Shown here piece by piece: positions 21,401 through 64,000 of a stretch of 64,000 nt of DNA. The position numbers were made by a program, and so were the translations under genes. Numbering within the stretch: position 1 is the stretch's first letter; each line of letters opens with the position of its first letter. The notes under the pieces are model-generated. The model was not told the origin of the DNA and did not search any database. It worked only from the letters and a program-made list of their open reading frames with translations. Origin of the DNA: Pseudeuparius sepicola (Eukaryota; Arthropoda; Insecta; Coleoptera; Anthribidae); the NCBI GenBank assembly GCA_963920635.1, contig OY987299.1, positions 117,429,373-117,493,372 of the forward strand, in the 5' to 3' direction.

Positions 21401-24400
21401 TAAATGCTTAATATACTTTCGTCATTTTGGGGTGTCGTTATTTTAATTATAGTACGCAAGCAGGCCATAGAAACCTACTATATTAAAAAAATGTTTGAGA
21501 ATGTTCCACCCGTTAAAAAATAATGAATTATCTGATCTAAAGCACAGAAATTGGTTATTCTGTGGCTAAAGTACTGTACACTTTTAACTTTGATGAAAAT
21601 TATGAGAAAAATCGATATCAATAAAGTTGTAATAATTTATATTAAATTATTTTAAAATGATTTTTCCTATTTTTAGCATTAAATTTTAGTTCCAGTCCCA
21701 AGTATACTTGGCATTTAAATGCAGAAAATAATTTATAAATGCAAAATATTATCCAGCTCTCTGGTTTGTAACGTATTTTCGACATTTCCCAATTAAGAAG
21801 TTTTATTACCTCATTATCTTTCATGCGGTTTGTAAGCGGACTGCAGACATATTTTTGGATAAATTATCGGTACAAAATCATAAGGCCTCAAGCTCTAATA
21901 ACGGCTATGTTCCACGTTATCATTTTGCAAAAAATCGCGGCAACATATATTGCGCTATATTCATTTAAGTTTGCCTACTTTCCCGTGTCGAATTCGCGAA
22001 ACAACTCTGAGCAAATAATTAAATGAAATTAATTAAACAGGTGCGGTAGGTTAATGGTTTTTGTAGCTTAGGGACCACAGACCACATGCCACATATCACC
22101 TATAAATGTGAGAAAAACGATTTTTTTCAATATTTGTATTTTTATTGTGTGAATTATTGATTGCTTATGTGAGTCCTAATCTACGAAAGCGTAGAAGGGC
22201 CACCTTGTAAATATTTTTTCCCGAACTAAATTCCGACTTATAAGTCGGAATTCTGACTTACATCTCGGAATTCCGACTTATAAGTCGGAATAAGGTCATT
22301 CCGACTTACAACTCGGAATTCCGACTTACAAGTCGGAATTCTGACTTACATCTCGGACTTCCGACTTACATCTCGGAATTCCGACTTATAAGTCGGAATA
22401 AGGTCATTCCAACTTACAACTCGGAATTCCGACTTACAAGTCGGAATTCTGACTTATAAGTCGGAATTCTGACTTATAAGTCGGAATTCCGACTTACATC
22501 TCGGAATTCCGACTTATAAGTCGGAATAAGGTCATTCCGACTTACAAGTCGGAATTCCGACTTATAAGTCGGAATTCGACAGTTAGTACCTAATAGGTTA
22601 GGTTAAATTATTCTAGACGCACCAATCCGCGTTTGAAAAAATTTGGCGGACAAAACTACCCCCTGCATCCCTTTAAGGAAAAAAATCGATAACTCCATTG
22701 TTTCTGCTCCGAATTTCGCCGTTTTCACAAGAACGTTCAAAAGAGTCTCAGAAGTGAAAAAATTGCCAGGCAAAAAACTACCCCTTCCCAGCCCCGAAGT
22801 TGTTTTTGGTCGAGTCCTGGCCATTTTCAGCAAGGACGTTCAAAATTATCCCAGATGCATCAATCCGCGGTTGAAAAAATTTGCCGGACAAAACTACCCC
22901 CTACACCCCTTTAGGGAAACATTTGATAACTGTATTTTTTCTGGCCAGATTGTCGCCTTTTCACCAGGTAATTCTAAAGTCTCAGAATTCAAAAACAAAT
23001 TTTTGGGGGATGCAGGGGTAGTTTTTATCCGGCAAATTTTTTCAACCACTGATTGGTGCGTCTGGAATAATTTTGAACGTTCTTGCTGTAACTGGCGAAC
23101 ATGGCGAACAACTTGGGGGGTGGGAAGGGGTAGTTTTTTCCGGCAATATATTTTTACTTCTGAGACTTTTTTGAACTTCCTTGTGAAAACGGCGAAAATC
23201 GGACCAGAAACAATAGAGTTATCATTTTTTTCCTAAAGGGATGCAGGGGTAGTTTTGTCCGGCAAATTTTTTCAACCGCGGATTGGCGCATCTGTAATAA
23301 TTTTGAACGTCCTTGCTGAAAATGGCGAAGATCCGACTAAAAACAACTTCGGCGGTGGGAAAGGGTAGTTTTTTACTTATGAGACTTTTTCAACGTCCTT
23401 GTGAAAACGGCGAAAATCGGACCAGAAAAAATGTAGTTATCATTTTTTTTTCCTAAAGGGATGCAGGGGTAGTTCTGTCCGGCAAATTTTTTCAACCGCG
23501 GATTGATGAGTGCGTCTGGAATAATTTTGAAGGTCCCTGCTAAAAATGGCGAATGCATTTTGAATTTCTGAAATATTGTTTCGAAACAGTGATGCATACG
23601 CACGGCACATTGTACAGGGTGTTTTAAAACTATGCGGCACCCTTTTAAGGGTCTACTTTACTCATTAAAATAAGACGAAAAGTTCATATTAACATGGGTC
23701 AAAAAACTCTTCGTTACGAAGATACAGGGTGATTAAACTTCCAAAAAATATCGATTTTTCTTTATATAACCAAATTTGGTACACAATAAAACCATCATAG
23801 GGTGACATAAGAAATGATAATATCAGGTCTCTAAAGTACCCAGTGGCTGAGCTAAGGGTAATCGGTACCATAAATTAAACAAAAAAATACTATGGCCCTG
23901 TACAATACAACAATTTATTATGTTGTTGAATAAACAATACAGTTTGGAATTTAATTTTTTTCATATCTCTCTCCCTTTTGCGGAAAATTTGAGTTTTCGG
24001 TCTTTTTGGACGCTTTTTCGGATTGAAGTATTATAGTCAAATTTTGTTAAGAGTCCTTACTGGGACTGTCAATTGGTAATTTCGACATCCTAAGTTGGCA
24101 TCAATGGAGCAAAAAAATGCAACCGGGTCATAAGTTCAGGTCAGTAACGAGCCCATTTGCACAATGAATATAACTACTAATAACACGCGCGAAAAGAAAC
24201 AAAACAAGAACAACACAGATAACGGTAAAACTCACGAAACGTACAAAACCCGCGAATATTTTCACTGCCCAAAGTGTGAATCACTTTGAACGATCCGGAA
24301 AACCTTCATTGTCACTTTCACAACGAAACAAAATTTGCCTGAGTCCGGCCCGCACCATAGACGCTGCCGCAAGCAGATGATTATACCAAAATACCAAAAT

Positions 24401-27400
24401 GACGTTTGAAATTACTATTGAAATGAGTTGTAGTCATAGTTATTTTTATTTGTAGCGGTATAATCGTGATTGCAATAGGGTTTTTATTTTATTATGCTCC
24501 TTTTTCGTATCACTTGGGTAACTTTTCAGATCATAAATCAATGAGTGAAACACATATTATACCCGTGGTTAACAGAAAATTCCTATGGATTTTGTGGAGA
24601 ATGTCATCTGACAAAATCGGGACTTCTTACAGTAATCGGGGTATATTATGTAACAATGATTATTTTAACTAAACGAAATGATTTTCAAATGGAATGGCAG
24701 TAGGAGTATGTAATTTTTGTTACTAATAAGGCTCTAAGGCATAAAAATAATAGCATTAAAGCTTGTTAGGTAATTGTTATTTTTTTGAATGTTTAATCAC
24801 CGTGCATCTTCGTAACGAATAGTTTTTAAACCCATGTTAATATGAACTTTCCGTCTTATTTTAACGAGTAAAGTACGCCCCTGAAAGGGTGCCGCATGGT
24901 TTTGAAACACCCTGTATAATTCCATAAACGCGTGGCTATACATACGTTTTGTTTTATAAGGCATACTTAAGACAGGGTGCGGGCCCGGCCGACCCTGCCG
25001 CCCTTGTAGAGCTGCCACTGTATTCTACCACCACAAAATATGCAGATACTACAGTATTCTGCTCCGGAAAAAGAAAAAGGTACCTAGATCCAATAATGAT
25101 ATAATATTTTTATTGATGGTTCTCTCCTTAGCAGTATTACCAAAGCCTAGAGAATACTATAAGTCGGGGCACTCGGCCTTGTATAAACAAACGTTTCCCC
25201 CTTGCCCTCTCCCGCTCCCTCGGCCCGCCGTCATCGGAGTACGGCGATCGATATCTTATTTAATAAGAAAATAAGCTTGCACAGTATAGCCGAGAGCGGT
25301 TCGAGGCTGATTTACGACCAGCCGCAAAAAAATGTTGTTTTTTCCGAGAGAACAAAGAAGTGAGCCGACTTATAGTATTCTCTAGACTTTGGTATTACCA
25401 CTGTCAGTACGTTCGTACTAGAATCTAGTACTATTTTTTAAAATTTAATACGCTTGTACGCCGCTCTAAAATCTAGCACTTTTTTTTCTATCCTTCCTTG
25501 AGCCAAGATGGCCCTGGATTACAAAAAAAGAAAAGAAAATAGATCTCTGTTTCCATTAGTTCTGTGTTCTAAGTTAGAAAGTTTGTTCGCGTTTCGTTCC
25601 CAAATATCAAAATACACACCCTCTGTCTAGCGAAATGAACCCTAGGGCACGTTCACTGCTGTAAATAATATGTGTTGACGGACGAGGTTCAGTTTTGTAG
25701 ATCTTTTGAAGGCGAAAAAAAACTTTACTTTTTTATTGTGGACAACCTGATTTTTCGTTAAAATATAAAATAGTAGTTTTTATGGGCCTCTAAACAATAA
25801 TTTTACCCTCCGACTTTAGGCTACGGGTAGTAGCAAAGATTAGGTAGTAGGTAATTGCTATCATGTTATGTCACCCTATATTTTTATTTTTGACTTCAGA
25901 AACCAAAGTTCAATATAAAACTTGTAAAGGGCGGTCCACTGCACTGGTTGTTATTTTTGAGCTAAAAGTAAAATTTAAAGGAGAATTTTATGGCGAATCC
26001 GAATATTATTTCAGGTTTTTTGTTATGGAGTTATCAAATGTTTCCTTAAAGGGGTGTAGGGGGTAGTTTTGTCCGGCAAATTTTTTCAACCGCGGATTGA
26101 TGCATCTGGGATAATTTTGAACGTCCTTGCTGAAAATGGCCAGGACTCGACCAAAAACAACTTCGGGGCTGGGAAGGGGTAGTTTTTTGCCTGGCAATTT
26201 TTTCACTTCTGAGACTCTTTTGAACGTTCTTGTGAAAACGGCGAAATTCGGAGCAGAAACAATGGAGTTATCGATTTTTTTCCTTAAAGGGATGCAGGGG
26301 GTAGTTTTGTCCGCCAAATTTTTTCAAACGCGGATTGGTGCGTCTAGAATAATTTAACCTAACCTATTAGGTACTAACTGTCGAATTCCGACTTATAAGT
26401 CGGAATTCCGACTTGTAAGTCGGAATGACCTTATTCCGACTTATAAGTCGGAATTCCGAGATGTAAGTCGACTTATAAGTCGGAATTCCGACTTGTAAGT
26501 CGGAATTCCGAGTTGTAAGTCGGAATGACCTTATTCCGACTTATAAGTCGGAATTCCGAGATGTAAGTCGGAATTCCGAGATGTAAGTCGGAATTTAGTT
26601 CGGGAAAAAAATATTTACAAGGTGGCCCTTCTACGCTTTCGTACTAATCAAACTGAAACGAAATAATAATAATATCTCTCGGTGTTTGTACAGGGTACTC
26701 CGATGAGAAACAGTATTTTTGCCATGTTTGAAGCTATTTTGTGAACGCCCTGTATAAGCTATGACAGTGAAACTTGGTGTGTGGGGGTTTACGGGTATGG
26801 CCAATACGACTGTGCTATTCTTTTTTTCCTAAAAAAATGCCTAATGTGCTTTTGCAGTTTTTGGGGGTATAATTTTGATGGTAGTAGGTCATGGAAAAGA
26901 CTAATCTGAAAACAATTAGTGTCAAAATATGTATTTTTTGAAGTAGAATAGGTATATTCTTTTTTTGAAAATCGGCCAATTCGTAAAAAATAATGAATTG
27001 TCTCGACTTTAAGTGAATAAACACACTGTATAGTAGGTTATTAGGGAAATAATAGTTGGCCATCGATGACATTGTTTGGTTGAAATACTATGGCATTTTA
27101 GTCAGTTCTCGTCAGTTCTCGCCAAATAGAAATCTGTCTTTTTTCTTTCAAATGAAATAATTTTATTTTTTGTAGGTATTTCAAAAAACAATGAACGATA
27201 AACCAAATTTTACATGAAACTGCGGCAGATTAAAAAAAATGTGAGAGAACTTAACATTACCGTATTTCGTGACACTTGATCAATGCATATTGTGCACCAA
27301 ATTTCGTTTGAATATATTTAGCGGTTGGAAAAATCAAAAACAAAACTTTAATTTTTTTTTTGAGAATTTAAACAGCATGTATCTCGGAAACGAGGCGGCT

Positions 27401-30400
27401 GTGGATAAAAATTTATACCTACCACAAGATAGTAATATTTTATGGTCTTTGAAGATCCTTGAAGAAACCTTTTTATTGGTGGTTGGCAAAAGAACGATAA
27501 TAATTATGTTGACAAAAGTCGGCTGTACCCTGTATTAGAGCCTTTATCTTTAGGCTGTATACTAAGGCTGGGAGATATTCATGAAAGTATCGATTATAGC
27601 CGATATATCCATATTGCGATATATCGATATTAAGATATATCGATATTAAGATATCGATATTCCGATATATCGATATTCTGATATATCGATATTAAGATAT
27701 ATCGATATTCCGATATATCCATATTCCGATATATCTATATTCCGATATATCGATATTCCGATGTGTCGATATTCCGATATATCGATATTCCAAAACTCCA
27801 TAATCATGGACCCCCTAAATTAGGGGGCCCTAATTGCTCAAAGTGCACCATTATCCATATGTTTGCTATTTGCTATCAACAACTAACAAAAACAACGTAG
27901 TCATGTGAATCTCATATCTGTCGTGTTGAGTACTGTCTTGCTTATTATTGTGGTTGCGAAGGTGGGTAGTATTGGTTGTTGGGTGGGGTGTGTACAAGTA
28001 AAAAGAGAAAAGCATAATAGCATTGAATAAGGAATTTAATAGGCACACTGACGGAAAACAATAAAACGTTTTCAGTTCTCTTTTATTTTTTAGATTATAT
28101 ATATAGATAGATATTATCAACATATCGATACCTATATCGGAATGTCGATATCTATCTTCACTAAATATATATTAAAATATCGATATATCGATATATTCCA
28201 ATATCGATATATCGATAAAAATATTGATATATCGAAAAAAATCGCAGCCCTACTGTATATCTACTTACTCTTTCGGGTATTGCTAAAAAATATATATGCA
28301 CATTTAAACAATTATTATATATTCATTATTTCTCTGTTACCTCCCCCCCTCCTTCTTCTTCTTTCAGGAGGTGTTCTGCGGCGGCACGCTCATCTCGTCT
28401 CGCTGGGTGCTGACGGCCAGCCACTGCGTGCGCCGGCTGATGTCCGTGCGCGTCAACGCGCACGACCTGCGCACGCGCAGCTCCGGCGCCGACGCGGACG
28501 TGGCGGTGCGGCGCGCGTTCGCGCACCCCCGCTTCGATTACGCCACCGTCGACAACGACGTGGCGCTGCTGCTGCTGGCCAGGCCGGTGGTGGGCGCGAG
28601 GCCCGCATGCCTGCCGGCGCGCCGCCCCCGCCCCCGCACCGTCTGCGTCGTGATGGGGTGGGGGAAGGTGCGCGCCGGCGATTCGTACGGCGTGCCCGTG
28701 CTGCACGAGGCGCAGGTGAGCGAGCGGCGATGCGCACCCGTCGGTGCGCTCTCGCAAACAGCGACTGCGCGCTCCAGTGATGAACGACGAGGCGCATATA
28801 GTTTGTAGTTGAAGGCATAGAGATCATATACCGTACTATCATAGTTTTAGTACACATAGCCATGGCTGGGCGGCGCGCCGCCGTGTATTCGGCTAGGTTC
28901 GTCAGTCGTTGGCGGGGGGCGGGGCGTGTTTTTTGCTCGCAAAACTCGACTGATAAGCGGTGCGGGACTACTGTGTACTCCCCCCGCCAACGACTGACAA
29001 ACCTAGCTGGATGCACGGCGACGCGCGGCCTATTCCCCTATGTCTACTAAAACGGTGAAAGTACGGTATATAGGTAGAGTGCTGGACGATGTTTTTTATA
29101 TATAGGATGCGCGGAAAATCTTTGACGAATTTAAAATCATTAAATAGTAAAAAATAGTAATAAATAGGCCCAGTGGACATGCGCATTTGCATAATTTTAG
29201 GTAGTGTTTTGTGAAACTTGACACTCTTTGACAGCGATTTGACAGCGACAAACTAAGTATAACCTACCGTTGTTTACATCATAGACGCTTTGTGGCATAA
29301 TTTTTTCGATTTTCAGCTAATTAGTTTTAGTTGTTTGAGTGTTTTATCTAATTAAGTGATCATCTCGAATATGTTCTGCTCATTTTACACCAGAATGTTT
29401 AAAAACGAAACGAGTCAAAACGCAGCTAATTGAAAATGCGGTACCATAACTCTTCTATTAAAGCCGTACCTAAACCATCATTTAAGTAAGTATATTAACA
29501 TGATTGTGTTGTAAGAAACTATTAGTAGCTTATTTGTTTTAGTATTAAAGTTATAAAGGTAGATGAAAACAAGTCAAGTTCTAGCATCAGTGAAGCAAAT
29601 TCTAGTAGTTTGGACGAAACTAGTTTTACAAGTATAAACGAACCTAGTTGTAGTTTTCGAAGTCTTGACCAGTCCACGTTGAGGTGAGCTTATAATTTAT
29701 TATCAATATACAAGTTTATAGGGAGATAGTAATTCAGAAAAACAACCACTGTTTTAAATTGCGCAGTCTGAAGGTCTAATGCGCATGTTCCATAAGCCCA
29801 TGCGCAAATCCACAATTTGCCATAAAAAGGGACTTGTTCAGCACTCTACCAATATACAGGGTGTCCGGTAATTATACGGCAATCTCGCGTGAGCACGTAG
29901 AGGACATCAAAATATTACGATTGAGCTAACAACTACGGGTCAAATCTTAATAGTTACAGAGATACAGGCCGTCGTAATTCTTTTTTTGAGATTGAATTAT
30001 GGCAATAACTCCCACAATAATCAAGCTGCTGAACTGAAATTTAGTACTATTATGTTTTTGGGGATAGAAAATAAGCTGAAAATGTCAATTTCTGCGTGTC
30101 TCACAGAGGGCGCAACTTGCACTGTTTTTGGATCGCGCTTTTATTCGTAACTGTTTTGAGGTTATCTTTTAGGGCCTGCGGGTCCATCATTTCAGTGCAT
30201 CAGTGAATAAAAAGGTGCACTAAAATAATGGATCTGCAAGACCAAAAAGATAACCTCAAAAAAGTTACGAGTAAAAGCACGATCCAAAACAGCGCAAGTG
30301 GCGCCATCTGCGTGAGACACGTGGAAACTCACATTTTCAGCTTATTTTCCATCCCCAAAATCATAATAGTACGAAATTTCAGTTCAGCAGATTGATTACT

Positions 30401-55500: not shown

Positions 55501-58500
55501 TCAAATAAATTTCAAACTATTTTAATGCAAATTGTAATTTATAAGTTTACTTACTTTATTAGTTTGATTGCTGATGAGGATGGAGCCCCTCCATTAATAG
55601 GCGTGACATTTTCAGATGAGGCCACTCGTTGTATGCTTGCAGACGAAAATGAGAGTCGCGACTAAAATAGAATAAAAATTGTAAATTCGCAATCGCAAAT
55701 ATACAGTGTGTTTCACTTCTAGTCGAGACAATTCATTATTTTTTTTAGTGGTTGACCGATTTCCAAAAACTTTTTTTAAAAATATAGTGCTCCGAAAGAT
55801 CTACATTTTGACACTAATGTTTTTCAGATTTATCTTTTCCATGGCCTACTACGATCAAAATTAAACCCCCAAAAACTGCAAAAGTACATTAGGCATTTTT
55901 TTAGGAAAATAATGAATCGCACAGTCGTATTGGCCATACCCGCAAACCCCACATACCATGTTTCACGGTCATAGCTTATAGAAAATAGCTTCAAACATGG
56001 CAAAAATACGGTCTTTCGAAGTACCCTGTACAAACACCGAGAGATATTTTAAAATTATTTCTTTGCAGCACACGATTCCATGGCCCTGCCTTATGCAATA
56101 AAAATACAAAAATCGAAAATAATCGTTTCTCTCTTGGTGTTTTTTTTACATTTTTTTTTACAATTTTAACTTATTCCTATTAAAAAACATAAACAATATT
56201 AAATTTGGAAAGTATTTTCAATAAAAAGCATTCTTTTTTATTTGACAAAATTTAAAAATTGATTGGTATCCACGTATCCAGGGTTCTCTTTATTGAAAAT
56301 ACTTTCTAAAATTTAATATTGTTTATGTTTTTTAATAGGCATAAGTTAAAATTGTAGAAAAAAATGTAAAAAAAAACACCAAGAGAAAAATCGATTTTTT
56401 TCGATTTTTGCATTTTTAATGCCAAGGCAGGGCCATGAAATCGTGAGAATTGATGGCTTATGTGAGCCCTAATCAAACTGCAAAGAAATAAATATAAAAT
56501 ATCTCTCAGTGTTTGTACAGAGTACTCTGAAAAACCGTATTTTTGCTATGTTTGAATCTATTTTTTGAGCGCCCTGTATAAGTTATGACCGTTAAACTTG
56601 GTGTGTGGGGTTTTCGAGTACGGACAATACGACTGCTATTCATTTTTTTTCTAAAAAAATGCCTAATGTACTTTTGCAGTTTTTGGGGGTATAATTTTGA
56701 TCGTAGTAGGTCATGGAAAAGACGAATCTGAAAAACATTAGTTTCAACATGTAGATCTTTCGGAGCACTATATTTTTAAAAAAGTATTTGAAAATCGGTC
56801 AACCCGTAAAAAAATAATGAACTGTCTCGACTTGAAGTGAAACACACTGTATGTTTCAAAATTATGAAAATTATTTGAATATAAATATATTTGAATTAAT
56901 TATTTATTTTTTAGTTTATAGACAATGTTAATTATCTTCAACTTACAAATTGTTGTTGTATCCTGTAATATGAAGAAAAAATGAAAATTGTAGGTCAATC
57001 CCTAGGAAAAGGATACACATATACTAAATATCTCTATTAAGTATGTGGTCATCATAAAGAATTCTTTTTCATTTTGATTTGAACGTGATACATAGAAAAT
57101 CAAGGTTAAATATCTGACATCATCTGTCAATGTGAAGAGGCCTAATGTGCCCCTGGTCTTAATACCGCCAACTTTGGGTAACTAAATTTAAAAAAATGCA
57201 TTTGTGGGATCTAGTTAAAGAGAGATTTTAATATATCAAAGGTATTTCTTAGTTAGCTCTTTTCTCATTTGAAGAGGCTCAAAAGTTAAATACTCTATTT
57301 CCACTGTAAACTCATCTTGTACTTACCCTGGTAGGAGTCAAATTAGAGCTGTATCTAAACTTGGTAGGATGCTGCGCCGACATAGAAGCTATAGCACCAC
57401 TCAAGTTCGCTTCCTTCAACAATATACCAGCCGTATCGCCCAACCCTTTAGTCACCAAATGTTGGTGGATCAACTGCAGCAACTGCTTATCGTTAAACTG
57501 GATTTTCGTTTGCGCCACCACGTTTGCTTTGTGTATTCTATGGATATTCGACAGGGTAACCTCCAAATCGCTCCCCCCGTATTTCGTTTTCCCCGATAAC
57601 CTTTCCAGCAGTTCTAGGGCGTGTTTTTGGAACATCACGTGCTCTTGGCGCTTTTCTTGGAGGATCGGGTCTCTCATCAAATCTAGAAAGCGGTGCCAGT
57701 CAAAATTTGTTCATTTCTGAAAATTTTACTTACTCTGTAGCTGACCACTGGTGAACAATGGCAACTTCGAAACTATTTGCCTGACCGTATCAGACCTGGC
57801 TAAACCTGCCAAAGCTTTGCAAGCCAATGTCCTTATGCAATCGGCATCAGTTATCGGAGTTTTCACATTCATGAGTTGCAACAGGACCATTATGCCGCTG
57901 TTCGAACGGACGCAGTCCCACACTTTTTGTATCAGGTCTTCGGAACTCTTAAATTTTAGCTTTTTGTTCGGAGAGGTGGTGGACTGGTTCATGGAGAATC
58001 GAGCTACAGTCCCGCCAACCTATGGAATATTGCGCAGAATTAAAGAAAACAAAGAGGAAATGATTATTTTTGTCAACTCACCCTATTTATAGGTGCACAG
58101 ACACAGTTAACAATAACCCTAAGAGCGGCCTTTTGGACATCGGCATCCGCTACAATTTCCCCTTCTGCGGCTCCCAAAATAATATGAATTCCTGAAAGAA
58201 AAGTGCCATAGAGGATACCATTTCCACATTTTCATACAATTTACTTTTTAAGTTTACGAGTCTAACAGCGGTGAGATCTTGGCAAAATATTGTTTTGTAG
58301 TAAACACTTTTTTATACAAAACCTTCATTTACAAGATACAGGGAGCCAAAGTTTTTTTTTAAATATAAGATAATGATAATATTATGTCTGATTAACGTTA
58401 ATGACATGCATAAAGTAGCATGAAATTTGTCAATGACAACTCATGGAGGAAGGATTATAATATGGTGTGCCTATGCACATATTATGTCAATAATTTTGCC

Positions 58501-61500
58501 CAAGCTAGGGTTCCTGGATAGGGAGAGTTGGGTCAATAAAGTCGTTGGTGCCATTATTCGCCGATTTTGGGCATTATAGAGATAGCTAGATTATTTCCTT
58601 TTTACTCCGCAAAAATTTTAGATTTCCTAGAAACTGTATGTCAAATTAGAGGCTTTTTGTATTTAGGTTATGATTTATGTCAAATTAAAGAGAAATGATG
58701 GGAAGTCATGGGTTTGATGCAGGTCCTGTCATGAACTTTCTTCCAAAGATATATTATTTTTGTGAAGATTGATTTTGATGTAAGATAAACATAAAATGTC
58801 ATCATGTTTTCTGTGTGGTTAGGTGTGCAACAATGGGATAGGTACGACATGTGATTGTTTGGAATTTTGGCATTTTTTTGCGAAAAATAGGGTCTCTGAT
58901 GCCTTCTGTTAGGGGACAATATCGTACTGCCTTTCGGAGATTTGAGATTTCTATCACAAATATGTTGTTTTCTGTTTATTGTTAATGTCAAAAACTGACA
59001 TTTTTATTCAAGCACACTTCTTTACGAATTGTATAATGTGTAGTATTATACAATTGTATAAGACATACATAAATAATAATATTGTAAAACCCCATTTTAG
59101 TAGTGTATGGTGAATAGTCTCTTTTATTAAAGAAACAATTAATTACTTAAATCTTTATTCTCTTAATTCCAGTACACTGAAAAGGACATAATATACCCAA
59201 TGTGTTAACAAGTGTATTACTTAAGATAGTTAAGCACAAGAACCATTGCGAAACCACAGTATTGTGACTATATATTTATCTCGTAACTGAATAATCAATA
59301 AGTGCATTAGCTCTCACATGGTTCTACCGAGGGTTCTACGGGAATAGTGTCCAGCAATGGCTTAAACACTAATCAAAATTCTGATATGAAAAATGTATTA
59401 TCTTAGCGACAAAAATAAAAGTTTTTCCGCGTTCTAAATTAGCACACGTTTGATAATTCCTGAATTCCTTATAATATATGCTACAGAGCTCTTCAAAGCT
59501 TTTATATTATTGCTTTGTAAGGGATAAGTTTAGCGACATAAATTTCGCCCGCAGTATGTTGGATCTCGGCCAATAATTTTGGTTTCTAGATCATATCACC
59601 TCTTCACACCTTTTTCAAAATCACCATAGTAGACACTTGTCTCTGTTTCTCAGAGAATTCTTAGAAAAACAACAGTACCAAAGTTCAAAACACTTCATAC
59701 TACCCAGGTATTCTAGGCAGATTTTCAAACATAATTTATGTTATTATCACTCTAAAGTAGCACCGTTATTGCTATAATTTGTACTGTTCTCTCAAACTCG
59801 TCAGAAAACTGCTCCAAATAACAGTTGATTTAAAAAATGGACTTTTAGTTTACAATTCTCGGAAAATATTAACTTAAAAATTTAAATAGCCTACAAATTT
59901 AAAATCTTCTTCCGTCAAACCACAAAACATAATCGATGATCAGCTGATGGATTACTGTAGATCAAGAATCAGGATTATTGAATACTTGCCACTTTGCTTT
60001 TGGCAATATTCGGCACTACATAATGACGTACTTTTACATTCGGCTCTCATTCGGAAATTCAAATTTAATTTTCAAATTATTGGCTTTGGAAAGAATTAAT
60101 AAAAGAACAACGCCTATATGGAGACATGCTTATTAAACATGGTTCTTTCTAACACCTGTTTTGAAAATTTGGTAGAAGGAAGCAACCCTATTGTGACCTT
60201 CATTACAAGTTACATTTTTTTTTTGTCCTAACTCCCCCAATCCAGGAACTCTACCCCAAGCCACATACCTGCATAGGTTGATGCAGGTACAGTTTGTTCA
60301 GCGAATGTTCGCCCCTACGTCACAACTCCCGTCCTTGTCTTACTCGTGAATATACGATGGATATCGGTCATATATTCACGAGCCAGACAAGGACGGCAGT
60401 TGTGACGTAGAGCCGAACTATATTATGATTGAACAAAGAGAGTGATAGTCGACCATATACAGTACTGTTTCGGGACGGTAATCCCTCATCAGTATGGTTC
60501 ACCCGACTATCAAGTGGTATAGACAAACGTGCTTAGACGATAGATTTACTATATAAGGAATCAATCAATTACCGAAGCAATTAATTGATAATCGAGTATT
60601 ATAATGATAGCACACCCGAAGGTGCGGGACAAAGCCACTGGTCTTGATCGGCAAAGGCTCATGCCACAATTACCGAGACCCGCCATCTGCCGTCTCCACG
60701 GCGTCGGTTAACCAACCGAAAACATCGATAGTTGATTGATTCCTTATATAGTAAATCTATCGTCTAAGCACGTTTGTCTATACCACTTGATAGTCGGGTG
60801 AGCCATACTGATGAGGGATTACCGTCCCGAAACAGTACTGTATATGGTCGACTATCACTCTCTTTGTTCTATCGATGTTTTCGGTTGGTTAACCGACGCC
60901 GTGGAGACGGCAGATGGCGGGTCTCGGTAATTGTGGCGTGAGCCTTTGCCGATCAAGACCAGTGGCTTTGTCCCGCACCTTCGGGTGTGCTATCATTATA
61001 ATACTCCATGAGCTTCGGTAATTGATTGATTCCTTATATATTATGATTGTCGCACATGTCATGACTTCGGCTTGGGAGCAAATTAAGAAAAAAAAACTCC
61101 ATTATTTAGAAAGGCAATGCGATAAATCTAAGAAATATGGATTATATTATCAATTAAACTTATCTAAGGGGACGAATGTTTACAAATAGTCCTCGGGCCC
61201 ATGCCTACAACATTTTTTTTATTACCTCACCATTGAGACTTTGTATATGTGTTTTTTATGTCCACAATTTCTGACATAAGAAAATTCTCAGTGGCGGGGC
61301 ATTACCACTTGATTTTAAATATTTTCCTGAAAAAATCAACTGACACCCCTAACATGGAAAAGTTATGATGTCCTAAAATTCCAAGATACCTATTTTCTAA
61401 ATTCTGATAATATAGAATTAATGACATTATTCTATAAAAAAAATATATAATTAACTCACCAACTGTGACACTTTCTTCTGGCAAATCCACCCTCTCGCAG

Positions 61501-62021
61501 AACAACTGGGTGACTTTCGGCATCACACACGCAATCGCCAAAACATCGAGGGCGGACCTCACCGTCTCGGCTCTGCCGCTGTAGTTCCACTCGTACGCGA
61601 AAGCGATTATTTTCAAGAGGAGGGTAACTCCCCCCAACTTCAACAGTTGATCGACCGGCGACCAGTGCGATCTGAACGGCATGTTGTTCAGGAGCGTTTC
61701 GATCTGTTGCTGGATTTCTTCGGCAGAGGATTTACACGCCTGCCAAGAATAACGATAATAAAGATACCCGCACGGATTTAAGGGCGAGCTGTCTCGTACC
61801 TTATACGAGGGTTGTGCGGGTAGCAGAGGTGGGGCGAGCTTCTCGTTCGGCCTCATCTGGGACCTCCTGATGATTTCAACTTTGGCATACAGGTGGGCCT
61901 CCAAGTATCTCCTGTAGGCCACGCAAACGTGCCGAACTATCTGCCTGGCGGCACATTCCTGGTCTTCGTTTAAAGATTGACCAGTATCGTTGTCTGGGAG
62001 TAAAATTGGTAAGGTGGCAAT
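40319..62021 (-). CDS. DCAF1: DCAF1/VprBP (mahjong), CRL4 substrate receptor (gene span, N-terminus beyond window)
   Basis: Fourteen exons on the - strand with matching phases give about 986 residues that follow the known DCAF1 order: armadillo-like helices (exons from 62021 to 57734), LisH dimerisation motif (in 57682-57327), a variable linker, the conserved LESIITEYLTNQHALCKNP block, a WD40 propeller (53077 to 48801) and an acidic tail (48549-40319). DCAF1 binds DDB1-CUL4 and recruits proteins for ubiquitination in the nucleus; the fly orthologue mahjong also binds Lgl and acts in cell competition. Family members are about 1,500 residues, so roughly the first third is missing and should lie past the right edge. 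The introns, up to 8 kb, are rich in foldback elements and one hammerhead-containing element. No frameshifts were seen; the gene looks functional. Confidence 0.93.
40925..41655. mobile_element. foldback element
   Basis: Arms such as CGGAAACTAGCGGAAGGTTAA (left) are complemented at about 41595-41630; the right end has GCCCTGTA, the left end has decayed. It belongs to the same broad set as 1253-2792 and 39263-39611, which share GGGGATCT and GGTTAAAT blocks. Confidence 0.6.
42354..42827. mobile_element. Tc1/mariner-type MITE, intact copy
   Basis: 474 bp between TA dinucleotides; both 28-bp ends are perfect inverted repeats (CAGTGACCGGCAGAAAGTTG...). Internally non-coding. It is inverted relative to the damaged copy at 19120-19589. 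Confidence 0.88.
44436..44756. mobile_element. MITE, GACTACGTTTATCTCG ends
   Basis: The 16-bp left end GACTACGTTTATCTCG is exactly complemented at the right, followed inward by GATCCGATTGA on both sides. About 320 bp, non-coding. Confidence 0.7.
45003..45782. mobile_element. TA-flanked element, CAGWGAGCACGTAAAGG ends
   Basis: CAGAGAGCACGTAAAGGTTG with near-exact complement at the right (one mismatch) and about 45 bp of matching arm; TA on both sides. Confidence 0.7.
45883..48308. repeat. outer inverted repeat of 2.4 kb
   Basis: GGGCCCACCGAACTATATTC at 45883 and its near complement ending at 48308. It encloses the foldback at 47095-48150 and a segment with a tRNA T-arm-like GGGGGTTCAAGCCCCC at about 46330. 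Possibly a larger DNA transposon with its coding part gone. Confidence 0.5.
47095..48150. mobile_element. TA-flanked foldback, CAGGGTGTAAC ends
   Basis: CAGGGTGTAACTAAACTGAT at the left, complemented at the right, TA flanks. The arms are near-identical over about 300 bp and contain an inner CAGGGTGTTGGTAAAATTAA block that is also palindromic, so one element may have inserted in another of its kind. Confidence 0.75.
48489..48549 (-). CDS. DCAF1: DCAF1 exon: acidic segment
   Basis: 61 bp between TTTTTCTTAG and TATG/GTGAGT; encodes DEEEDESDMDNSEDDGSDNY. Phase 0 in, one base out. Confidence 0.85.
48801..48958 (-). CDS. DCAF1: DCAF1 exon: end of WD40 propeller
   Basis: Encodes ATIDVKKNIYDLAVNRYD and VVRLYDVGRRRDDEDEQ, the conserved last blade and start of the acidic tail. 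Acceptor CCATTGCAG, donor CAG/GTACAC. Confidence 0.92.
49984..50343. repeat. 360-bp inverted repeat
   Basis: AATAAAGAACCCCAGGAAGG at the left is complemented at the right end. A diverged relative occurs at about 43915-44110 (GGTGGAAATCGCCCTGAGTA). Confidence 0.6.
51105..51712. repeat. dispersed repeat, inverted copy of 24040-24650
   Basis: Shares long blocks with the interior of the foldback at 23615-24914 (for example GTCAGATGACATTCTCCACA and CCAATTGACAGTCCCAGTAA), in opposite orientation. Non-coding; family unknown. Confidence 0.7.
51942..52143 (-). CDS. DCAF1: DCAF1 exon: WD40 with WDxR motif
   Basis: Encodes IVSNTEVWDIRTFHLLKTVP and QCSVIFSPVNSAIYGIG, ending DYNDYSSI. WDIR is the DDB1-contact WDxR motif. 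202 bp, phase 0 in, one base out. Confidence 0.93.
52210..52419 (-). CDS. DCAF1: DCAF1 exon: WD40 blade
   Basis: 210 bp, phase 0. Encodes IYDINSGNSIAKL, ATFSWNDELVLSDGVLFDVN and SGVFHPNGLE. The FDVN lies where vertebrate DCAF1 has the first WDxR motif, so that motif is degenerate here. Confidence 0.93.
52475..52559 (-). CDS. DCAF1: DCAF1 exon: WD40 blade
   Basis: 85 bp. Encodes TPFADEEHVEFSKVTQDKII and GTKNETAT; conserved across the family. Donor ACA/GTAAGT. Confidence 0.92.
52624..52832 (-). CDS. DCAF1: DCAF1 exon: WD40 blade
   Basis: 209 bp. Encodes PGDRSIIVADYNGEVRTFNV, HLEPNRSGELLLTSSTWGRP and SALWNLKDSAIK, matching the vertebrate LEPS-DGSLLLTSATW region. Confidence 0.93.
52888..53077 (-). 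CDS. DCAF1: DCAF1 exon: propeller start
   Basis: 190 bp. Encodes PHKCPDPKPKITTANNF, RCARRAIGYQ, RFIHSRFCPVQTIRSQNEDG and FTCAKYL, leading into the first blade. Confidence 0.92.
53134..53358 (-). CDS. DCAF1: DCAF1 exon: conserved ITEYL block
   Basis: 225 bp. Encodes VTLESIITEYLTNQHALCKN and CPQFNLF, one of the best conserved DCAF1 blocks. The donor is GT/GTAAGTAC, giving a Val codon across the junction. Confidence 0.92.
53624..54321. mobile_element. TIR element in DCAF1 intron, contains exon-like segment
   Basis: CTCAGAGAAATAACCAAGGA at the left is complemented at the right (about 36-bp inverted repeats, few mismatches), and the inner flanks are also partly complementary. It encloses the possible 78-bp exon at 53962-54039. 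Confidence 0.6.
53962..54039 (-). CDS. DCAF1: possible DCAF1 cassette exon (transposon-derived?)
   Basis: 78 bp between CGTCACAG and CAGCG/GTATTT, open in the phase required (…YLKPPDMAMLLLMPRL…), GC-rich unlike its surroundings. Because 78 is a multiple of 3 and the flanking exons join in frame without it, it is optional. It does not resemble known DCAF1 sequence and lies inside a TIR-flanked insertion, so it is either an exonised element or chance. Not counted in the 986 residues. Confidence 0.3.
54322..55554 (-). other. DCAF1: DCAF1 intron, unidentified repeat-like block
   Basis: 54360-54960 differs from its surroundings (GC-richer, with GGGGGCGCCGGAAGC and TTCACGGGGGGAAATGG) and looks like part of a repeat family, but I found neither ends nor an ORF I trust. 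The rest is AT-rich. Confidence 0.35.
55555..55661 (-). CDS. DCAF1: DCAF1 exon: variable linker
   Basis: 107 bp, Ser-rich: SRLSFSSASIQRVASSENVT and SSSAIKLIK. RLSF corresponds to the RISF block of vertebrate DCAF1. Acceptor TTCTATTTTAG, donor AA/GTAAGT. Confidence 0.88.
55704..56849. mobile_element. TA-flanked foldback, CAGTGTGTTTCAC ends
   Basis: CAGTGTGTTTCACTTCTAGT at the left with near-exact complement at the right, TA flanks, centre near 56250. The right arm from about 56450 is the paralogue of the sequence into which FB-2 inserted at 22176/26649. Diverged single arms occur at 20950-21560 and 26685-27040. Confidence 0.8.
57327..57682 (-). CDS. DCAF1: DCAF1 exon: LisH motif
   Basis: 356 bp. 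Encodes LMRDPILQEKRQEHVMFQKH, HKANVVAQTKIQF, then NDKQLLQLIHQHLVTKGLGD and TAGILLKEANL, the LisH dimerisation motif. Donor AGG/GTAAGT. Confidence 0.95.
57734..58019 (-). CDS. DCAF1: DCAF1 exon: armadillo-like helices
   Basis: 286 bp. Encodes KVWDCVRSNSGIMVLLQLMN, TPITDADCIRTLACKALAGL and VRQIVSKLPLF, strongly family-like. Confidence 0.95.
58082..58191 (-). CDS. DCAF1: DCAF1 exon: armadillo-like helices
   Basis: 110 bp. Encodes IHIILGAAEGEIVADADVQK and ALRVIVNCVCAPINR; acceptor CTTTTCTTTCAG, donor AGG/GTGAGT. Confidence 0.94.
60315..60410. repeat. 96-bp hairpin next to retrozyme
   Basis: CTACGTCACAACTCCCGTCC at the left and the complement ending at 60410 (one extra base in the stem), around CGATGGATATCGGTCA. 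A diverged single arm with GTCACAAGTCCTGTCCTTG lies at about 62498. Confidence 0.7.
60444..60511 (-). ncRNA. type I hammerhead ribozyme (- strand copy)
   Basis: Same fold as the + strand copy with one change (GAACC for GAGCC) in the internal loop of helix I. The core CTGATGA, helix II and GAA are intact. Predicted cleavage falls between 60458 and 60457 (GTA^T, reading on the - strand, which is the orientation of the DCAF1 transcript). Confidence 0.85.
60789..60856 (+). ncRNA. type I hammerhead ribozyme (+ strand copy)
   Basis: All core parts can be placed: distal helix I GATAGTCG (60789-60796) with CGACTATC (60849-60856); internal loop; proximal helix I CCATA (60803-60807) with TATGG (60843-60847); core CTGATGA (60808-60814); helix II GGGA/TCCC (60815-60818, 60825-60828) with loop TTACCG; core GAA (60829-60831); helix III ACAG/CTGT (60832-60835, 60838-60841) with a 2-nt loop; cleavage position A60842 followed by T60843. 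Every invariant residue is present. The very short helix III is usual for metazoan type I hammerheads. Confidence 0.9.
61460..62021 (-). CDS. DCAF1: DCAF1 exon(s): armadillo-like region, first visible
   Basis: Acceptor TGTTTCTAG at 62022-62023; donor GTTG/GTGAGT at 61459. Encodes ECAARQIVRHVCVAYRRYLE, PPLLPAQPSYK, WSPVDQLLKLGGVTLLLKII, SGRAETVRSALDVLAIACVM and LCERVDLPEESVTV. It may contain a 60-bp in-frame intron (61740-61799: GTACGAG...TTCTTGGCAG); removing it joins PSYK to ACKSSAEE, which fits the family better. Confidence 0.93.
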
Positions 62022-64000
62022 CTAGAAACAGTTTCAAGTCAAACGCCTTCATATGAAAATATGTCAGTGACAATACAAATAATGTAAAAAAATCTTCATA
62101 AAATTTTTACCACACTATAAAAACTTGTTTTACCTATATCTACTTTGCGATAAAAGAAAAAATAATATTCTTTTGCAATAATAGTTATTTGTTCTTTGCA
62201 TTACAAAATGCGGAAGTGCACTTCTTCATGCAATTTTCCAGGACAGGAAGCTATAGCCGTGAGAAATCTTTATAAATACGTCAGTCAACGGTATGAGGCA
62301 AAACTTAACATATTTGATTTTTCGAAAAAATGCACCATTTGTGACATATAGACTCGGGCCTAAGTGAAAATAACCAAGGATAAAAAATAGTTTTAATATT
62401 ATTATTATAGCATTAATTTAACAAAAATGTGGCTATTAATTCCTTGTATGTGACAATTTTAAACTACATTTTGTTCATCGAATGTTTGGCCCTAGGTCAC
62501 AAGTCCTGTCCTTGTTTTACTTGTGATTTTTTTTGCCCAGTGTGTCATATTTTCTAATTGTTTACGTATTTTTCGTGTTTTCAAGTCAAGTCTAAGGAAA
62601 TTTGACGCTTTTTCATTTAATGTTTGTACATTTGAGGTAACTTTTGTATTTAACATTCTTTGAAATAAAGATTATTATTATTATTATAATATGGGTCTAT
62701 ATGGAATTGGAGGGATATCGTTACGTCTTATTGAGTTCTATCTTAAAAATATAAAACAACAAGTTGTTGAAACTAATAAAAATGGCATTCTTATCAAAGT
62801 TAACTGTTCAATGTGGTGTGCCTCAGGGCTCAATCCTAGGCCTCCTTCTACATATTATTATGTAAACGAACTGCCAGATATTTTTAAGCTGAAGTCTTTA
62901 AAGTTGAATACAAAAATAAAACTATAACAGCCAGAAACTGCGTCTCTTTCCTGGTCAATACTTAAGACTTGATTGGAAGGAGGATACCGAACTGCTAAGT
63001 TCATCTTTAGCTAGGTACAACTATGCTTTAAAGGTACTGTCCATTTGTGTAAATGAAAGTGTGGCAACAAGGATTTCCTACGGAATTATCTTTTGGGGAG
63101 GAATATCCACTTTACGTAGGGTACTGATAATTCAGAAGAGATGCATGAGAAGCATATAAATATGGTATGAAGCAGAGAATTGTAAAGAATTTTTTATAAA
63201 TAAAAAACTATTAGAACGGTTGATCTGTACATCTTTGAAGCTACGTTGTTTATAACTTAAAATCCACATTTTTTCACAGAAAATTTATTAAATCATGATC
63301 ATAACACTAGAATTTAAACAAATTAATACCATTAAAACAAATGAAGAAAAAATAAAATGTTGGTTGGTTTCCAGAGTATACCACACTCTAAGTGACATTT
63401 TTAATGACGTGATAATATTGTGATACTGAATGTAATATCTTAGATTTTTTAATATACATTTGTTTAGTCTGCTGTTAATTTTAAACAGTAAATTTTCTAA
63501 TTTTTTTATAATGTACAAACAAATTAAGGATGTAAGATTAGCAACTGTGCCCATGATCAGTTTTCCTCGTACAAGTTAAGAGAAACTAGAATTGACGTGT
63601 TCGATAATGGTGCTCTAAAGTAAATTATCAAGTTAACCCTGAAAATGAACGACACCCCAATGACCATTTATATTTTGATTCATATAATTTTTTTGGTAGA
63701 TTTTCAGTGATAATCTTAATAACAATCAGTGACCAAATAAAAGAGGCAGAAAGTAATAATAATAATGATAATAAAGCAAGATGCTTTGTGTGATATTTAG
63801 AACAACTTTGACTGGTAAAGGGTTTGTCAAGGGGTTTGTAATAACATATCTGTTGCTTTAGGCTAACTAGCTGTCGATTGAGCCCTACCCGGCACTCTTA
63901 TTTGCCACTGGAAATGTTAATTCTTATTTTAATAATAGCCAAACATTAATATTGGACGTAGTTTTCATGTTGCGACACATATTTTGCCGTGTACATTTTG
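62022..64000 (-). other. DCAF1: upstream DCAF1 intron or 5' region
   Basis: No further DCAF1 exon was recognised up to the window edge. It contains a MITE end near 62250-62292 and a LINE fragment at 62691-63240. Confidence 0.5.
62691..63240 (+). pseudogene. degenerate non-LTR retrotransposon (LINE) reverse transcriptase
   Basis: Pieces of a Jockey/CR1-like reverse transcriptase in order on the + strand but in different frames: YGIGGISLRLIEFYLKN with KQQVVE near 62700, then CGVPQGSILGLLL at 62812 followed by VNELPDI after a frameshift, then after a deletion of the catalytic palm LARYNYALKVL at about 63010 and ISYGIIFWGG at 63073 with LIIQKRCMRSI. Frameshifts, stops and the deletion show it is dead. 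Confidence 0.8.

Follow-up and report, generated by a model that had tools for sequence, protein, structure and literature searches.

Two hammerhead ribozyme units, head-to-head and circularly permuted within one 13-bp direct repeat, in a DCAF1 intron

Results

Two permuted units within a single flanking repeat

The 605 bases at 60432–61036 of the window, the whole 64-kb stretch of DNA analysed here, consist of two near-identical non-coding units of 290 and 300 nt that lie in opposite orientation, head-to-head. Each half is a circular permutation of the other, and the pair forms neither mirror images nor a fold-back palindrome. On balance, we regard the locus as probably a non-autonomous retroelement, short and hammerhead-bearing, which belongs to the animal non-LTR retrozyme type and arose by a single insertion primed from both target strands. 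A sequence-only reading had placed an inverted dimer at this interval and a perfect 13-bp direct repeat at its flanks; comparison of the arms and repeats reproduced the interval, and the direct repeat, here called the target-site duplication (TSD), is present at both ends (Table 1).

Table 1 Features of the inverted pair and of the adjoining DCAF1 exon (window coordinates)
Feature	Position	Strand	Basis
5' TSD copy, TATATTATGATTG	60419–60431		identical to 61037–61049
Left half, one 300-nt unit, sense order Y'X'	60432–60731	-	repeat and arm comparison
Type I hammerhead (HHR), left half, predicted cleavage 60458/60457, DCAF1 sense	60444–60511	-	descriptor match; outer limits from sequence
Head-to-head junction, palindrome ATCGAT at 60724–60729	60724–60731		sequence and arm coordinates
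Right half, 290-nt unit, order X'Y', plus first 15 nt of next unit	60732–61036	+	29-nt repeat at spacing 290
Type I HHR, right half, predicted cleavage 60842/60843	60789–60856	+	descriptor match and folds; outer limits from sequence
3' TSD copy, TATATTATGATTG, 13 bp, perfect	61037–61049		identical to 60419–60431
DCAF1 coding stretch, upstream of the intron in gene sense	61460–61748	-	7v7b_A match

The arrangement is defined by two pairs of complementary arms. Positions 60427–60575 pair with 60725–60873 (149 nt, 97% complementary) and positions 60591–60731 with 60869–61009 (141 nt, 99% complementary), and the two arm pairs overlap at 60725–60731, at the junction. When the parts of the unit are named X, which holds the ribozyme, and Y, the order on the + strand is X-Y-X'-Y', and the two units abut centrally by their 5' ends at the ATCGAT palindrome. 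A palindrome at this position is compatible with a single reverse transcriptase that primed itself or switched templates, either on its own cDNA or on a multimeric RNA, with only one target end as primer; passages of PMC3846280 explain the junction palindromes of inverted Penelope copies by self-priming. However, plain snap-back priming predicts mirror arms in the order X Y Y' X' and is ruled out by the observed order X Y X' Y', and self-priming leaves unexplained both the unit similarity at the two outer borders and the differing indel block of the halves, described below. We consider this explanation distinctly unlikely.

Outside the junction and border regions, the halves are separated by two substitutions and an indel block (15 versus 5 nt). 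Two different template RNAs would account for these differences, as would later mutation. The same differences could also point to two separate events, in which an existing unit gained an oppositely oriented neighbour through a second insertion, or an older tandem array was rearranged. Against this, the pair as a whole lies within one 13-bp repeat, and we found neither a second repeat between the halves nor a direct repeat of at least 12 nt flanking a single half. Because a single repeat encloses the pair and none was found around either half, one event is the simplest account. In-place inversion of one tandem unit was rejected, since it would have preserved unit continuity, which is not observed; we judge a history of two events very unlikely.

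Direct repetition within the pair is confined to about 29 nt at a spacing of 290, and a direct tandem of the unit is absent from the 64-kb window, which holds one unit per orientation. The outer end of the left half may also be placed 1–5 nt deeper in the flank, where the target resembles the unit, and in the right half the match to the unit continues 4 nt into the 3' TSD copy. The GC content of the two units is 0.448 and 0.469. No coding frame longer than 70 aa touches the element, the longest stop-to-stop frame there being 70 aa.

The element lies in a DCAF1 intron

The sequence-only reading had assigned the surrounding gene to DCAF1, and coding matches to the DCAF1 structure 7v7b_A agree. 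The stretch 61748–61470 on the - strand (query residues 92–184) matches residues 557–650 of this structure (E 4.4e-22 for the whole query); the exon runs to about 61460, and the donor GTGAGT, read from the sequence, starts at 61459. Further coding matches were obtained at 57726–58019 (residues 706–787, E 1.7e-25) and 57312–57710 (residues 787–886, E 1.3e-23). The segment 58150–58311, which looks like the intervening exon, gave no match, and Pfam gave none for two DCAF1 pieces. Since DCAF1 coding stretches lie on both sides, the element is intronic, and since the left unit is in the sense of the gene, the DCAF1 pre-mRNA holds one sense ribozyme and one antisense copy.

Other repeats and genes were noted in the window. 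A near-palindromic hairpin occupies 60288–60418, with 56-nt arms that are 86% complementary (60307–60418), and ends where the 5' TSD copy starts. Its position beyond the 5' repeat, together with a 62-nt relative (85%) of its left part at 62465–62526, led us to exclude it from the element. It resembles an independent repeat of the foldback or MITE type, and its below-cut-off miRNA matches were taken as generic hairpin scores. A large inverted repeat at 1249–2796 (arms 1249–1537 and 2508–2796, 289 nt, 94% complementary) encloses inverted 47-bp tandem arrays at 1698–1826 and 2277–2402, and arrays of the self-complementary unit AATTCCGACTTAYAAGTCGG, with several higher-order periods, are found at 22229–22577 and 26383–26595. 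Part of a trypsin-like serine protease gene lies at 28308–28808 (PF00089, E 1.1e-25).

Each half carries a complete type I hammerhead sequence

Both halves contain CUGAUGA, helix II, GAAA, helix III, U16.1-A17 and helix I, and thus one complete HHR sequence each, with the core (CUGAUGA, GAAA, UH), the three helices and the opening at helix I of a type I hammerhead. A descriptor requiring CUGAUGA, helix II of at least 3 bp, GAAA, helix III of at least 2 bp, UH and helix I of at least 4 bp matched one site in each half and nowhere else on either strand of the 64-kb window, and no site in 200 simulated first-order Markov windows of equal length. When the 28-nt core was searched with up to 3 mismatches, the same two sites alone were recovered, and none in 100 shuffles. 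These results uphold the earlier claim of two hammerheads with complete cores, one on each strand, and the descriptor predicts the same + strand cleavage position that the sequence-only reading had given.

Helix I is bipartite, as had been stated, with 6 bp, a 5-nt bulge and 8 bp. The 4-bp helix II of the sequence-only reading holds if a U-G pair is left uncounted; otherwise the helix has 5 bp and a 4-nt loop. Helix III is formed by the self-complementary ACAGUACUGU, and the 2-nt loop proposed for it stands in one of two readings, A15.1-U16.1 plus 3 bp; the alternative is A15.1-U16.1 plus 2 bp, closed by a palindromic GUAC tetraloop. Only one of the substitutions between the halves, at 60802, lies within an HHR helix, where a G-U pair of helix I is exchanged for A-U and pairing is preserved.

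The sequence-only reading had named strong Rfam hammerhead hits on both strands as support and the lack of a ribozyme model hit as a refutation; with the present Rfam models, the outcome was the latter. At the gathering score, Rfam returned no match in the whole window, and no hammerhead was among the 10 matches obtained at E up to 10 for the 1001 bases at 60200–61200. The best score was reached by the isolated + strand motif alone (91 bases), which gave 12.1 bits with RF00008 (E 3.9) against a cut-off of 48.5. We judge this miss to be probably a limit of the models, because a full core with all three helices occurs in both halves and the predicted two-strand fold is a double hammerhead.

In the energy model, the optimum of the lone motif is not a hammerhead, at -26.5 versus -21.5 kcal/mol for the forced hammerhead on the + strand and -26.2 versus -21.2 kcal/mol on the - strand, and the helix I pair probabilities in the lone motif are 0.01–0.08. 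When two strands were folded without constraint, the optimum was a double hammerhead, at -59.0 versus -53.0 for two monomers, with probabilities of 0.73–0.79 for the inter-strand helix III pairs. A cis double hammerhead within a direct tandem of the unit is not favoured in the energy model, where its probability is only about 0.01. Tertiary and metal-ion contacts of hammerheads are missing from energy models. Passages of PMC7229834 describe an axolotl HHR type, in which a single-pair helix III is capped by a palindromic tetraloop, as weak singly and more efficient in dimers. Self-cleavage by the hammerheads of the present element may be regarded as plausible.

The missing Rfam call and the non-hammerhead monomer optimum would fit a coincidental likeness to hammerheads, relics without activity within a foldback DNA element, or an assembly artefact. 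The empty simulated windows argue against coincidence, and both halves have a full core with all three helices, in which the one change between them preserves its pair. Furthermore, the permuted arms differ from the terminal inverted repeats of a foldback element. We regard such an origin as extremely improbable.

Retrozyme RNAs are described as circles that are highly self-paired, beyond unrelated RNA. When folded as circles and compared with mononucleotide shuffles (100 each), the left unit gave z = -2.3 and the right unit z = -0.9, so that the units are not clearly more stable than the shuffles. The whole pair folds at -394.1 and -391.0 kcal/mol in the two directions, and its long arms are able to pair together.

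Read-through of the cleavage site and microhomology at the borders

The sequence across the HHR cleavage site is unbroken and identical in both halves, and the right half is longer than the 290-nt unit. Because both halves cross the cleavage site and one of them exceeds the unit, the template would have been a circle or an uncut multimer, and not a self-cleaved linear monomer. Together with the permuted breakpoints, these observations lend support to the earlier suggestion that the element was copied from circular or multimeric RNA.

Both borders show similarity between the target and the continuation of the unit. At the right border, target TATATTA and unit continuation TATAGTA agree at 6 of 7 positions; at the left border, target CAATCAT and unit continuation CTATCGA agree at 4 of 7. 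In 200,000 random draws of target and breakpoint, the right value was reached at a frequency of 0.0014, the left at 0.075, which is weak when taken alone, and both at about 0.000115, while a summed border score of 10 occurred at 0.0004; the test was devised post hoc, after the borders had been seen. Brief pairing of the RNA with both broken ends would account for this microhomology.

Penelope-like elements (PLEs) offer a precedent for such an insertion. According to passages of PMC11167929, a PLE enzyme in vitro cleaves both strands and extends them, with a preference for AT-rich DNA and an internal start on its own RNA. In passages of PMC3846280, a head-to-head inverted pLTR is reported to be frequent among Penelope insertions, with TSDs of 8–10 bp in the quoted cases. 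In the mechanism that we propose, a reverse transcriptase supplied in trans would have cut an AT-rich site in the intron, and each of the two DNA 3' ends would have primed cDNA synthesis on a circular or uncut multimeric unit RNA. The two antisense cDNAs would then have been joined via a short overlap at the ATCGAT palindrome, and the outcome would be a head-to-head, circularly permuted pair within one 13-bp duplication. More tentatively, the locus may be the frozen product of two-strand priming at one Penelope-type cut on RNA circles made by the ribozymes, perhaps two different circles, each copied about once round or slightly more through the healed site before the copies were joined; we hold this fuller account as possible rather than probable.

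Discussion

We consider it likely that the element is of the retrozyme type, a membership that the locus bears out in part. The animal non-LTR retrozymes described in passages of PMC7229834 and PMC4918200 have a type I HHR, a unit of 170–400 nt, GC below 50%, no coding capacity and a TSD of more than 4 bp. Here, likewise, the units fall within about 170–400 nt and below 50% GC, no protein-coding frame is found, and the TSD is perfect and 13 bp long, compared with 15 bp for the Nematostella retrozyme in the text available from PMC4918200. Insects, among other invertebrates, are stated in this literature to have retrozyme-like repeats. The retrozyme assignment of the sequence-only reading is thus sustained for unit size, GC content, lack of coding, HHR type and TSD, but not for direct tandem copies, of which there are none. 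The animal elements described in these passages are direct tandems, whereas the present locus holds permuted opposite units, one in each orientation, and yields no transcript with two same-sense HHRs; in published retrozymes, as far as those descriptions go, several same-sense ribozymes excise unit RNAs from a longer transcript.

Among related systems, the HHR repeats of newt and axolotl, as presented in passages of PMC7229834, share with this element a very short helix III and a palindromic tetraloop. Their unit measures 330–350 bp, and a need for HHR pairs is reported for them. Unlike the present pair, they form direct multimers of very high copy number.

The likeness to PLEs is closer in layout. 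Passages of PMC3846280 and PMC11167929 describe for PLEs a head-to-head inverted repeat, a junction palindrome, a short TSD, an AT-rich target and a type I HHR, all of which have counterparts here, including an inverted and a direct repeat head-to-head inside a short TSD, the arrangement compared with PMC3846280. This raises the alternative of a stripped-down PLE, composed of an inverted pLTR and an adjoining direct pLTR, whose ORF part was uncopied or lost; the HHR would then be the pLTR ribozyme, and the layout would be usual for a PLE. The type I HHRs, the often head-to-head inverted pLTR, the 8–10-bp TSDs and the junction palindromes of PLEs (passages of PMC3846280, PMC11167929 and PMC7761336) favour it. 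However, no frame longer than 70 aa touches the element, and so no ORF with reverse transcriptase and GIY-YIG endonuclease is found, and helix III is present here, whereas PLE HHRs are described without it in the text available from PMC7761336. Moreover, in PLEs with an inverted pLTR, as these passages describe them, the inverted part is a shorter copy of the same end, whereas here each half is a whole unit, and the permutation between the halves amounts to much of the unit length. We consider the stripped-down PLE rather unlikely. The element looks inserted in Penelope fashion, which does not in itself make it a PLE.

A further comparison concerns the twin-priming inversions of LINE-1, in which one insertion holds two opposite-sense cDNA pieces, primed from both target strands. 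Both pieces derive from one linear RNA and are not known to be permuted or longer than a unit. Opposite-sense pieces in one insertion are common to both systems, as priming from both target strands would be, whereas permutation and over-unit length set the present locus apart.

Searches for relatives by HHR-core pattern (viral_contigs and genome_contigs), by unit pattern (viral_contigs) and by distant blastn (phages) returned none, which says little, these collections being without animal genomes. No report of an inverted, permuted retrozyme pair was found among the titles and abstract starts of the open-licence literature, and the passages obtained from PMC7229834, PMC4918200, PMC11722881 and PMC7761336 held none on inverted retrozyme copies. 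The class of element is known, and its permuted head-to-head architecture is a variant not found in the open-licence literature searched.

The architecture bears on what the locus can do. There is one ribozyme per strand, and transcription from either side reaches the antisense copy first (XYX'Y' or YXY'X'). With a single HHR per strand, preceded by its own antisense copy, the locus should not free unit-length circles by itself, and since the ribozymes lie on opposite strands, no transcript cuts itself twice. A transcript of the pair should be cut at most once, and we would not expect unit circles from this locus alone. The locus should be a by-product of the retroelement cycle and not a good source locus, and it illustrates how self-processing may be lost by an insertion.

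There is no settled account of the route by which animal retrozymes get back into DNA, and circular RNA templates and Penelope-like helpers are proposals made by the authors of PMC7229834. A permuted insertion that spans the cleavage site and has microhomology at both ends is the type of scar that those proposals predict, and the permuted inverted pair provides a concrete pattern to count genome-wide. If two-strand priming on RNA circles is the true origin of the pair, inverted permuted pairs would be a DNA fingerprint of retrotransposition templated by circular RNA, one that is searchable in any genome.
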